Shown: one piece after another, positions 1-22,057 of the stretch
Numbering within the stretch: position 1 is the first letter of the stretch
How the letters are laid out: the number at the start of each line of letters is the position of its first letter
Assembly (NCBI RefSeq): GCF_002127325.2
Contig: NC_035448.2
Location: 88,540,753-88,604,752 of the forward strand
Source of the DNA: Helianthus annuus
Lineage: Eukaryota; Streptophyta; Magnoliopsida; Asterales; Asteraceae
Direction of reading: 5' to 3'
Length of the DNA: 64,000 bases
Notes under the pieces: generated by a model
What the model was told of the DNA's origin: nothing
Databases searched by the model: none
Seen by the model: the letters and a program-made list of their open reading frames with translations, nothing else
Position numbers and translations under genes: made by a program

Positions 1-2190
1 TTGTTTGATTCGGGTGCGGATAAAAGTTATGTGTCCTTGAAGGTTAGCCAAATGTTAAAACGTGCACCAACTCCCCTAAATACCAAACATGTCGTAGAGT
101 TAGCTAATGGTAAAAGTCTAGAAGCCACACACATAGTTTTGGGTTGTAATCTTATCCTCGCTGGTCAGACTTTCTCCATCGACCTCATTCCTATAGTTCT
201 GGGTAGTTTCGACGTCGTCGTTGGCATGGATTGGTTGTCCAAGCAGCGAGCAGAGATCCTATGTAAGGAGAAGATCATTCGTATTCCTCGTTCGGGTAAA
301 GAACCTCTCGAAGTTCAAGGCGACAAGAGTGGTGCTGTGGTTGGCATCATCTCTTTCTTGAAGGCTCAGAAATGTTTACGAAAGGGTCATACTGCCATTT
401 TGGCACTGGTTACTGATGCATCAACGAAAGAGAAAAGAATAGAGGATATCCCAGTTGTACGTGATTTTCCTCAAGTCTTTCCTGAAGAATTACCTGGTCT
501 ACCGCCTTATCGCCAGGTCGAGTTTCAAGTCGAGCTAGCTCCAGGAGCAGCACCTATAGCTCGCGCACCGTACCGTTTAGCTCCAACTGAACTGGAAGAA
601 CTGTCTAAACAACTACAAGAGCTCTTGGATAAGGGCTTCATTCGTCCAAGCTCTTCGCCTTGGGGAGCTCCAGTATTATTCATGAAAAAGAAGGATGGCA
701 CTTTTAGGATGTGCATTGACTACCGCGAACTGAACAAGGTCACAGTGAAGAACCGCTATCCTCTTCCTCGTATCGACGACTTATTCGACCAGTTGCAAGG
801 GTCGAGCTACTACTCCAAGATTGATCTGAGGTCAGGGTATCATCAGCTGAGAGTCCGCGAGGAGGACGTCTCCAAGACAGCATTCAGAACTCGCTACGGT
901 CACTACAAGTTTCTAGTCATGCCATTCGGGCTAACGAACGCGCCTGCAGTTTTCATGGATCTTATGAACAGGGTGTGCAAACCCTATCTAGACAAGTTCG
1001 TCATCGTTTTCATCGACGACATTCTGATCTACTCCAAGAGTCAGGAGGAACATGAGTAGCACTTACGTCATATTTTGGAACTTCTTCGAAAGGAACAACT
1101 GTACGCTAAGTTTTCAAAATGCGACTTCTGGCTTCGTGAAGTCCACTTCTTAGGCCATGTGGTAAACAAGGATGGGATTCATGTTGATCCATCCAAGGTG
1201 GATTCGATCAGGAACTGGCCTGCACCGCGTACACCAATGGAAATACGCCAATTCTTGGGTTTGGCGGGTTACTACAGACGATTCATCAAAGACTTTTCGA
1301 ATATCGCACAGCCGCTTACAATGCTGACACAGAAAGGTGTTACCTATCGTTGGGGTAATACACAAGAAACGGCTTTTCAGTACCTGAAGGATAGGCTATG
1401 CAGCGCACCTATTCTCTCATTACCAGAGGGCACAGATGACTTTGTGGTTTATTGTGACGCGTCAATTCAGGGTCTTGGTTGTGTATTGATGCAAAGGGAT
1501 AAAGTCATTGCCTACGCTTCGCGGCAACTCAAAGTTCATGAACGAAACTACACGACGCACGATTTAGAGCTGGGAGCTGTTGTTTTCGCGCTCAAGATAT
1601 GGCAACACTACCTGTACGGTACCAAGTGCACTATTTACACCGATCACAGGAGTCTCGAGCATATCTTCAAGCAGAAGGAATTGAACATGCGTCAACGACG
1701 ATGGGTCGAGCTGCTTAATGATTACGAATGTGCCATCAAGTACCATCCAGGCAAAGCCAATGTTGTGGCTGACGCTCTCAGTCGAAAAGACACTCTACCT
1801 AGGCGTGTACGAGCTTTGCAGCTTACTATTCAGTCTGATCTTCCTGCACAGATACGAGATGCTCAGGTGGAAGCATTGAAACCAGAAAACGTAAAGGCTG
1901 AAGCTTTACGTGGCTCGAGGCAACGGTTAGAACAGAAGGAAGACGGCGCCTACTATGTAACAGGACGTATTTGGGTCCCACTATATGGCGGTTTACGAGA
2001 ACTTGTGATAGATGAAGCTCATAAGTCTCGCTACTCGGTACATCCAGGTTCGGATAAAACGTACCACGATCTCAGAACTACATACTGGTGGCCTAGCATG
2101 AAGGCCCACATAGCAACTTACGTCGGCAAATGTTTGACTTGTGCGAGAGTCAAGACGGAGTACCAGAAACCCTCAGGCCTACTTCAGCAA
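1..2190 (+). pseudogene. Element A Gag-Pol fragment: protease to integrase N-terminus
   Basis: This is the left part of a Ty3/Gypsy polyprotein whose gag lies before the window. It opens in the aspartic protease (DSGA, Asp codon at 7-9). It continues through reverse transcriptase (FIDD catalytic Asp pair at 1015-1020), RNase H (YCDAS, Asp at 1456-1458; TDHRSLEH) and the zinc-binding start of integrase (HKSRYSVHPGSD; KCLTCARVK near 2130-2155). One in-frame TAG at 1057-1059 replaces the Gln codon found there in the sister copies at 8006, 13001, 28501 and 33881. That is a single C-to-T change. The frame is otherwise open up to 2190, where element B interrupts it. It resumes at 21944. The lone stop and otherwise clean frame suggest that A was intact, or nearly so, when it inserted. 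Confidence 0.93.
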
Positions 2191-2484
2191 TGTCACACCC
2201 CCAAAATCCACCTGCGGAGTATCACCGCTTGGGAGCGTGACTGACCAGGATTAAGCCACCAATCATATAGAACAACGTATATAGTAAAAGTAAATGTCAT
2301 AAAACCAAACCAATCCATATGAAAGGTGTTCCAAACATAAGTGTCATAACAAAGTTTAGCGGAAGCATAATTGTAAAAGCCCAATGTAAATAAGGTATGT
2401 AAGGTCATAGTGTTTAATCAAAACATCACGATCCTTGTCCACAACGACCGCGCCTCCCAGTGCAAGCTCCATGTACCTAACGAC

Positions 2485-3006
2485 CTGCAAGGCATGTAAC
2501 AGAGGATCAACAACTAGTTGAGCGAGTTCACAGAAAGTAAATGCGTAACAGTAAGTTCGTTTGTAGCATGTGGCTCTACTGGCCGATAGTACGTTCTATT
2601 AGTGGGGGCTTCCCATGTTGTATAACCACTAGACTCTTCGTAACCATAAGTGTTCTACATATCCCGAGAACAGTAATACGTACAAGTTTACGTAGGTTTT
2701 ACGTAAGTATCCTTCACAACCGAGGATAGGGGTACACGGGGGTTTACATAGGTTTTACGTAAGTGCCTGACACAACCGAGGCAGTAGTGAGTATCAGTTC
2801 ACGTAGGTTTTACGTGAGTGTCCTTCGCAACCTGAGGATAGTGAGCAATACAAGTATACGTAGGTTTTACGTATGTATCCTGCACAACCGAGGACGATGG
2901 TATGGTAGTCTAGTGATAGTGTCCGTATGAATCTATTCAACCTTATCCTTTCAATCCCATTCCCAAGCCCTGGGAATCCCATGCCTTAGTAAGAGTGTGA
3001 ACTCAC
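2485..3006 (-). other. Candidate leader intron in the reversed B-left LTR
   Basis: On the minus strand, CAAG|GTGAG has its donor G at 3006, and ATGCCTTGCAG ends at 2485. The sites match the donor/acceptor pair in the forward LTRs. Between them are repeated stretches containing TAGGTTTTACGTAAG. Confidence 0.5.
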
Positions 3007-19534: not shown

Positions 19535-21938
19535 TGTGACAACTCGTATTTTGAACTCATTTCTGTGTAACGTTACGTGATTGTGTGATTATGTTAATAG
19601 AATGATTACGTGATTATGTGATATGTGAATGTGTAAATGTTACTTGAAACCGATCGCACATGAACCACAACCGGACACAAACCCATTCGGTCCATGTTGT
19701 TGGACTCGAGACCATGGGCAGCCCAAGTAAGGGTTCGGCCCACTTCCTTCTCATACGCACACACGCATACTCGGGGATCAAACCAAACACACATATTCAG
19801 TCAATCATAACAGAACCTTAGAGTTGGGCCTTGTATAGGTTTGATTACTTAAATTTTTGTTACACCTCGGCCTAGTCTCACAAGCCCAAACCAATCCGAG
19901 CCCATCTTTCCTTATTTCTAGTTTACGTACACTATGTATAAGGATACATGGGATGCTTGCAAACCCTAGGGCCCTATTCCCTCTTCAAACGATGGCAGTA
20001 GACCCTTATCATCGAGGCATCCATCAAGGCACCAAATCATTCAGTCGAGCCGCTGGTTAGTAGATTCGAAATTATGTTAGTTCTTAATTGTTTGATCTTG
20101 TTATGTGTGAACTTGATTGTATATGTATGATCTATAGAAAGTGGATGTGCATAAATCTGATTTAAATGATTAGTAAGAATATTAAGACTGGTGAGTTTGA
20201 ATGTTCGATTCTCGATGATTAACACTTCAAAACAATCAAAGTGCAACGGATTGGACGGTGATCCGATCAAGTATCCGTCCGACGATTATGCCATTTTTCA
20301 ACTTGATTTTGTTCAAGACTTCTTATTATCACATGCAAACAAATATAATATGAGCCGATATTATTTAATGTTTCTTATACAAATTGATAGGACTAATCAA
20401 TTATGTGGCCGACAACAGTCAGTTTTAAAACTCAACTTCTCATGCCATAATTCTCAAATGCTATAGGACCAACTATATTAGTGGGCTGTCAACATGTTGC
20501 ATGCAACAATCTAATTGGACCAAATGATTATTGGAACGGCTGTTGTTGATTTATGATTGAATGATTGTTGTTTTTTTGTGGATGACATATAGTTGAGGAT
20601 GATTAATGGCTGTTGATAGGTGAAAATATGTTTGTAAGAGTGTAAAATATCTTGTGCCGTGAATATGCATAAAATCCCTTGTGAATTTTGAAAAGAAGGT
20701 AATACATATGTGCTGGGTTGTTAATTTTAGAACTAAGGAGTAATATGTTAATAAAAACTACTTTTGATCTCTTATGTTTTTTTTTGTGGTCTTTAATGAC
20801 AACAATCAATTGTCTGATGTAAGTGGATTTAAGTTTGAGTTCATTTTGTGCACATAATGATCTTTATACCGGTTAGTGATGGAGAAATGATTTGGTAGAA
20901 AAATAACTGTTTAGTATGTGCCACACATTCACGTTTGGACCGTACACAGTGTTTGGCCACACACGTCTTTGTGTAACCACACACATGTGTACGGTACATT
21001 GGAACTATGATTAACTGTGATGATTATTGTGAACGTGTATAAATGTTAGTATTACATATAATGACTGTTACTTGTGCACTACTTGATACGTGTTAGATAC
21101 GTGTGGTTAATACGTGATTACTTGAAAATGAACCTAATCAATAACCATAATAGGATACGGTTGACCAACACAACACAAGTAAAATGCCTGCCGAGCAATC
21201 TAAGGTGAGTTCACACAGCCAAGGCATGGGGTTCCCGGGTGGGAATGGGATTTGTTGAATTCTTGTACATTCTCAGCTGATAAAACCGAACGATAAGATA
21301 CGACTAGACTAGTAACACTTATTGAACTGATCTTCGCATACCTGCCAAGGGTTGGTCGCGATATTATGACTGTCTTCGCACACCTGCCTTAGGAAGGCCG
21401 CGAACTGAATTTTTACTAATCTTCGCACACCTGCCTGGTAGGCCGCGATACAAATAAACCTAGTCTAGAACACTTGGGAAAAACATCCCCTAATCTTCGC
21501 ATACCTGCCTGAGAGGCCGCGATGGGAAACCAAAACGATACATGACATAACGAACGAACATACTACTACTCACACTATACTATTAGTGAACTATTAACTG
21601 TGAACTCGCTCAACTAGTTGTTGACTCTCTGCTGCATGCCTTGCAGGACCTTAGGTACTTATGGAGCTTGCACAAGGAGGAGCGGGTCGTTGTGGGCAAT
21701 GGATCGTGAATGCTATGTTTAACGTTTCGAATAATTGAACTTATGATTTATTTTGGGTTTACATACTTATGCTTCCGCTACTTAATTATGTTTGGCTTAG
21801 AACATCAATTGTATTGAATTGGGTTTTGCGAACTATCTTATTTATATTATGCTATGTTCAATATGATTGATGGCTTGATCCTGGTCATGTCACGCCTCCA
21901 AGGGTGGTACTCCGCGTGTGGATTTTGGGGGTGTGACA
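19535..21938 (+). repeat. Element B 3' LTR
   Basis: 2404 bp, from TGTGACAACTCG to GGGGGTGTGACA, next to AGCAA. A TATAAGG box lies at 19937-19943. The splice-like donor is at 21205 and the acceptor at 21646. Four TTCGCACACCTGCC repeats occupy 21332-21522. It gives the full-length reference for the truncated 5' LTR. Confidence 0.94.
21205..21646 (+). other. Candidate leader intron in B 3' LTR
   Basis: The donor is CTAAG|GTGAGTTC and the acceptor GCCTTGCAG|GACC. It is the twin of 5903-6345. Confidence 0.5.
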
Positions 21939-22057
21939 AGCAACCCAGGATACCACAGTGGAAATGGGAAGAAATTTCCATGGATTTTGTTACTGGCCTG
22001 CCTAGATCCCAGCGTGGGAATGATACTATTTGGGTGATCGTAGACCGACTCACAAAG
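21939..22057 (+). pseudogene. Element A integrase core fragment, continued
   Basis: After the second copy of the target duplication (AGCAA, 21939-21943), the pol frame of element A resumes with the segment that follows LLQQ in intact relatives: PQWKWEEISMDF, then TGLPRSQRGNDT and WVIVDRLTK. It carries the first catalytic Asp of the DDE integrase core, in SMDF. The frame is cut at 22057, after the codons for LTK, by the LTR of element D. The rest of A's integrase and its 3' LTR must lie beyond the right edge of the window. Confidence 0.9.

Follow-up and report, generated by a model that had tools for sequence, protein, structure and literature searches.

Fused long terminal repeat (LTR) retrotransposons are known from grasses, in which template-switch complexes with a target-site duplication (TSD) have been described (PMC1950507). 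In these complexes, reported by Sabot and Schulman in 2007 for Angela, Opie and Squiq, two related elements are joined within one 5-bp duplication, and their origin is explained by template switching between co-packaged RNAs. Unusual pairs of LTR ends have been studied in vitro, where purified human immunodeficiency virus type 1 (HIV-1) integrase favours pairs of unique 5' (U5) ends and gives mostly 5-bp duplications, as described in PMC8742673, and where U5-end oligonucleotides are used as donors, as stated in PMC3790719. Here, we describe insertion B, a Ty3/gypsy element at positions 2191-21938 of a 64,000-nucleotide stretch of the Helianthus annuus genome (contig NC_035448.2, positions 88,540,753 to 88,604,752; hereafter the window), which is a nest of LTR retrotransposons, designated below by letters. 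Insertion B has a U5 end at both termini, and it was probably produced by one integrase event on a chimeric complementary DNA (cDNA), with a reversed, early-arrested transcript of a second subfamily, D, on the left and element B on the right.

Target site and termini of insertion B

The host of insertion B is the pol gene of an older Ty3/gypsy element, H, and the insertion is delimited by the following features.

2186 to 2190: left target-site duplication AGCAA, within pol of the host, element H
2191 to 2211, reverse strand: U5 terminus of 21 bp, a perfect inverted repeat of 21918-21938
21939 to 21943: right target-site duplication AGCAA

The two flanks of B represent one target with one 5-bp duplication, as the initial annotation had proposed, since the window contains three paralogous pol stretches, at 37272, 14748 and 41450, that cross the target without interruption, and their matches to the two flanks overlap by 4, 4 and 5 bp; the chance of a 5-bp match between the flanks is 1/1024. 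Over 21 bp, the left end of B, TGTCACACCCCCAAAATCCAC, and the reverse complement of its right end are identical, which bears out the accompanying claim that both termini are U5 ends. The unique 3' (U3) start TGTGACAACTC is not present at 2191, and B's normal left end, AGCAA-TGTGACAACTCG, is not found at the left boundary, where AGCAA abuts the U5 end of D.

A canonical LTR-retrotransposon insertion has one U3 and one U5 end, and such an arrangement, with U3 on the left, U5 on the right and a 5-bp duplication, was observed in all four control insertions with both ends visible.

9697 to 18252: control C, TSD ATATC, U3 left and U5 right
31179 to 40764: control G, TSD AAAGT, U3 left and U5 right
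25544 to 45194: control F, TSD TTTTA, U3 left and U5 right
23524 to 54007: control J, TSD CCTGT, U3 left and U5 right

This count leaves out element I (22058/59879), the right end of which was not resolved, and elements H, E and K, which run beyond the window. In the four 5' LTRs inspected, those of B, C, G and F, a GAT spacer separates the U5 end from the primer-binding site (PBS), and it is missing at both ends of insertion B, as expected after trimming by integrase. With the 21 terminal bp identical at both ends, a single integrase would meet two equal ends.

Left side of the insertion and the joint between D and B

The left end had initially been annotated as a reversed LTR of another subfamily, which describes the complete LTR of D correctly but not the whole piece, as this also includes 125 bp of internal DNA. 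Beyond what had been annotated, we observed that the D piece meets B's LTR at 4780 via a patchwork and that the first 550 bases of B's LTR are missing.

2191 to 4345, reverse strand: complete LTR of subfamily D, 2155 bp, with its U5 end at 2191 and its U3 start at 4345
4346 to 4470, reverse strand: internal DNA of D from upstream of its 3' LTR, 125 bp, on the side of the polypurine tract (PPT)-like GGGGATAA
4469 to 4484, forward strand: patch of 16 bp, TTAAATGATTAGTAAG, derived from the LTR of B and also present at 4857 and 20162, with 2 bp in common with each side
4483 to 4776, reverse strand: second copy of D, about 294 bp (U3 start region, PPT side and internal DNA), 99% identical to 4169-4463
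4777 to 4779: AAA, without a match in the continuation of either D or B at the joint
4780 to 6637, forward strand: 5' LTR of B without its first 550 bp, matching 20085-21938 at 98.87%, followed by the PBS TGGTATCAGAG

In global alignments, the D LTR shows 52.6-59.4% identity to the LTRs of B, C, G and F (52.6% to that of B), and its last 340-430 bp show 75% identity to B (over the last 340 bp or so) and 82% to C. The joints of the patchwork have 2, 2 and 0 bp in common, with AAA added at the last. D is left at two points separated by 7 nt, 4470 and the equivalent of 4463, both at the foot of a predicted hairpin: the piece at 4346-4470 extends up to 6 nt into the hairpin arm position seen in relatives, and the second copy breaks off at GATC, 1 nt short of that arm. 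This hairpin (GGAATTTCG/CGAAATTCC, 8-9 bp) is predicted in all four relatives. The internal piece of D measures 125 bp, compared with internal regions of 4.1-5.1 kb in G, F, B and C, and a uniform breakpoint would leave a piece that short with a chance of 1.7-3.1%. On the other side of the joint, the start of B's 5' LTR remnant does not exactly match the predicted transcription start; TATAAGGATA lies about 150 bp and AACCCTA about 120 bp upstream of 20085, the base matching the first of the remnant, which would thus begin inside the predicted repeat (R) region, without U3.

The age of the joint was compared with that of B itself. The LTRs of B differ at 17/1844 aligned sites (5 gaps) and the two copies of D at 2/294 sites (1 gap), with a p value of 1.0 in Fisher's test (2/294 versus 17/1847); insertion C, which is nested in B and the LTRs of which differ at 2/2250 sites, is younger than B. 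Judged by these substitution counts, the patchwork appears not detectably younger than the arrival of B.

Origin of the two U5 ends

In reverse transcription, minus-strand DNA begins at the U5 end. In the sequence of steps that we favour, of which we infer the co-packaging, the stall and the direction of the jump, D and B RNAs would have been present in the same particle, and minus-strand synthesis on D would have proceeded from the U5 end through the LTR and the PPT and stalled at the hairpin; the 3' end of the D transcript would then have moved to B, returned for a short stretch to D and moved to B again, to be extended up to B's own U5 end. Integrase would have removed the 3-nt GAT spacer from each U5 end and linked the two ends to the target at positions 5 bp from each other. 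Arrest of the transcript shortly after the PPT would produce a piece made up of exactly the LTR and the polypurine side with hardly anything beyond, which would explain the 125-bp stub of D. Formation of the chimera before integration is favoured because a normal B altered by a later event would keep AGCAA beside B's U3 start unless the boundary is replaced exactly, and, with AGCAA on D's U5 end and both ends devoid of GAT, the U5 ends of D and B were most likely joined to the target in one reaction. Joints with 0-2 bp in common and an added AAA are typical of copying jumps; reverse transcriptase (RT) could have added the AAA of the last joint without a template, although host end joining is able to add it too. 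The sequence features support a two-U5 chimeric cDNA that would have formed before integration, a reading that agrees with every feature checked, as it fits the one TSD, the two exactly processed U5 termini, the two subfamilies, the joints with 0-2 bp in common and a duplication that is not detectably younger than B. The initial annotation had attributed such a chimera to either template switching or inter-element recombination; the former is the likely route, while homologous recombination between the elements is not supported, and that between the inverted LTRs was rejected, since the joints share at most 2 bp.

Several points weigh against this explanation: (i) the hairpin regions are not unusually stable in a shuffling test (z of +0.76, +0.92, +0.70 and -1.32); (ii) the hairpin in D is assumed from its relatives, as D's own sequence past the exit is lost; (iii) the second copying of D needs another plus-sense D template; (iv) the age test is weak, as 2/294 has a 95% interval of 0.08-2.5%, leaving room for a joint considerably younger than B; and (v) the patchwork could equally stem from host end joining. 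The last of these is central to an alternative in which two separate cDNAs were held in one complex, the U5 ends of D and B being joined to the two target strands and the inner ends being healed by host end joining with templated filler. The outer anatomy would be identical and the U5+U5 step is common to both readings, and concerted joining of separate viral-end DNAs, with U5 substrates, is described in vitro in PMC3790719 and PMC8742673. Such a course of events leaves a broken chromosome that has to be rescued, and D would either have been short already or have lost its internal region down to 125 bp, for which the chance is again 1.7-3.1%. The 2-bp microhomology, the templated patches and the 3-bp filler seen at the joints fit plant double-strand-break repair, but the templated copy, at about 294 bp, is longer than would be usual for end joining, and we consider the alternative unlikely. 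We give less credence still to a double hit, in which one 5-bp site received D and B in independent insertions of opposite orientation (AGCAA-D-AGCAA-B-AGCAA) and a subsequent deletion with filler took most of D, the middle AGCAA and the first 550 bp of B. Each of its steps is ordinary, the age of the joint is poorly separable from later times, and the landing of C 26 bp from the homologous position of B's target gives a slight hint of local preference; it requires, however, that an insertion struck exactly the same 5 bp, and in the right orientation, and that a deletion ended both 125 bp past D's LTR (1.7-3.1%) and at the hairpin foot, the middle TSD is no longer there to show it, and by a rough, uncomputed estimate its likelihood is below that of a single event by one or more orders of magnitude. 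The initial annotation had excluded a later insertion into a normal B. In its simple form, this course is indeed rejected, since it is the U5 end of D, rather than the U3 start of B, that adjoins AGCAA, but the exclusion was slightly too strong, as a reverse insertion at the same site followed by an internal deletion gives the same outline, even if it needs several coincidences.

An assembly error joining the reversed D LTR to B could have been promoted by the 294-bp, 99% direct repeat at the joint and by the abundance of LTRs of this superfamily in the window; neither an exact U5 end on the target's second 5-bp copy nor patches with 2-bp overlaps are expected from such an error, the window contains no N, and we regard this source of the structure as very improbable. 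Autointegration, in which the U3 end of D attacks the B cDNA to give U5(D)...U3(D)-B...U5(B), would likewise yield two U5 ends, and inverted products are known for Ty circles, with a cited murine leukaemia virus case, according to PMC4751563. It is the least credible of the explanations and was rejected, because the joint must be located at D's U3 terminus TGTGACA, whereas D runs 125 bp beyond it, with patches, and the joints at 4470 and 4776 are inside the internal DNA of D.

Remainder of B, neighbouring elements and relation to described systems

To the right of the joint, insertion B continues as follows.

6638 to 9696, forward strand: first part of the internal region of B, holding the RT open reading frame (ORF) 8006-9127
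9697 to 18252, forward strand: insertion C, normal, younger and nested in B, TSD ATATC, LTRs differing at 2/2250 sites
18253 to 19534, forward strand: second part of the internal region of B, starting with the right TSD copy of C
19535 to 21938, forward strand: complete 3' LTR of B, 2404 bp, U5 end GGGGGTGTGACA

The domain scan covered four ORFs of the window, which gave Ty3/gypsy-type pol domains; the integrase core of B itself is split by C. B carries RT and RT_RNaseH_2 domains in 8006-9127 and SH3_Tf2-1 in 18654-19523, and the paralogous ORF 40744-42639 contains RNase H, Integrase_H2C2, rve (30.3 bits, below the cut-off of 32.6) and SH3_Tf2-1. The features of a Ty3/gypsy element are found in B: the order RT-RNase H-integrase, the integrase part being read in the paralogous ORF, two direct LTRs (the 5' copy truncated by 550 bp), the PBS and the 5-bp TSD. 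Among the best 120 matches listed for the pol ORF 40744-42639, identity to Helianthus proteins reaches up to 92%, and one Helianthus protein shows 91% identity over 98% of the length of the ORF. Compared with the Ty3/gypsy elements of Helianthus and its relatives, the genes examined here show nothing unusual, and only the structure of insertion B stands out. DIRS-type elements with inverted terminal repeats possess a tyrosine recombinase and produce no TSD; this class was rejected for B on account of the 5-bp TSD and of the four scanned ORFs, in which domains of RT, RNase H and integrase were detected and none of a recombinase.

The site of C in B's pol (9692-9696/18253-18257) corresponds to position 2160-2164 of H, at a distance of 26 bp from where B itself entered the homologous pol gene of H (2186-2190), and both sites are found just beyond the part of pol that matches the integrase zinc-finger domain; a local integration preference is possible. 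A G-rich, mostly purine run starting with GGGGGG and followed directly by TGTGACA precedes the true U3 start by about 100 bp in D and in all four of the elements listed here, and resembles a second PPT with a U3-like start.

19423 to 19440: GGGGGG purine run, element B
15890 to 15906: GGGGGG purine run, element C
38418 to 38434: GGGGGG purine run, element G
42590 to 42606: GGGGGG purine run, element F

Elsewhere in the window, a second reversed D-like U5 terminus, TGTCACACCCCC, at 63438-64000 shows approximately 81% identity to D over some 490 bp; it sits directly in the forward LTR of E (61048-63437), after CACTA, and its far end is beyond the window. Another reversed U5-like terminus, TGTCACACCCCGAC, at 59880 adjoins the right LTR copy of element I (58627-59879), and a tandem array of about 128-bp units, 97% identical, occupies 60613-60988 between this reversed LTR piece and element E. 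The two 2236-bp LTRs of element G (31179-40764) are 100% identical, indicating a very recent insertion.

Tentatively, two-U5 insertions may constitute a real, overlooked class, in which reverse transcription stalls after the PPT, the LTR stub is spliced to a partner cDNA and a plant Ty3/gypsy integrase inserts the product via two identical U5 ends, and which may have been missed because annotation tools seek direct LTRs. If so, many insertions of this type should be present in genomes, each with inverted outer LTRs, one TSD and a short internal stub ending at the stall site. If the proposed origin of B is correct, the insertion would be a natural record of a plant retrotransposon integrase completing concerted integration with two U5 ends, a choice otherwise met only in in vitro papers, and would mark where reverse transcription stalled and switched. 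The structure offers a searchable signature (TGTCAC...GTGACA ends, inverted outer LTRs and one 5-bp duplication), in which the outward-pointing U5 termini form the pair TGTCACACCCC ... GGGGTGTGACA, and through which the frequency of chimeras could be counted; it also suggests that LTR-finding programs based on direct LTR pairs would miss two-U5 chimeras.

Within the open-licence PMC literature, by which subscription papers are mostly not covered, no two-U5 integrated LTR retrotransposon was found; in the available parts of two of the papers, the head-to-head elements are VANDAL21 copies (PMC12312487) and the sole mention of U5-U5 concerns RNA packaging (PMC12789967). The U5 20-mer had no exact match in viral_contigs, as expected for plant DNA. 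The initial proposal that integrase accepts U5+U5 ends gains support from B but is not new in itself, as HIV-1 integrase prefers U5 pairs in vitro according to PMC8742673; given this preference, the chemistry would be ordinary, and it is the genomic record in a plant that appears unusual. In its two U5 ends, its presumed single reaction and its 5-bp duplication, B resembles the U5/U5 concerted integration reported in that paper, the latter being an in vitro activity of a retroviral enzyme and B a chromosomal insertion of a plant Ty3/gypsy element. The autointegration circles of LTR elements, as presented in PMC4751563, also contain inverted LTR segments and are made by integrase from cDNA; there the joint is at an LTR terminus, in contrast to B, which is a linear insertion with its joint within the internal region of D. 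With the grass complexes of Sabot and Schulman (PMC1950507), B has in common a single TSD around fused elements. Those complexes have three LTRs, of which the outer two are highly alike, and standard integrase catalysis was proposed for them, which in our reading of their model means one U3 and one U5 end and outer LTRs in the same orientation. In B, by contrast, both ends are U5 and the outer LTRs are inverted and of different subfamilies, D's LTR being reversed and only 52.6% identical to that of B. Since inverted, unlike outer LTRs do not agree with the description of the Sabot-Schulman group, we place B outside it, although it would work like a template-switch complex.

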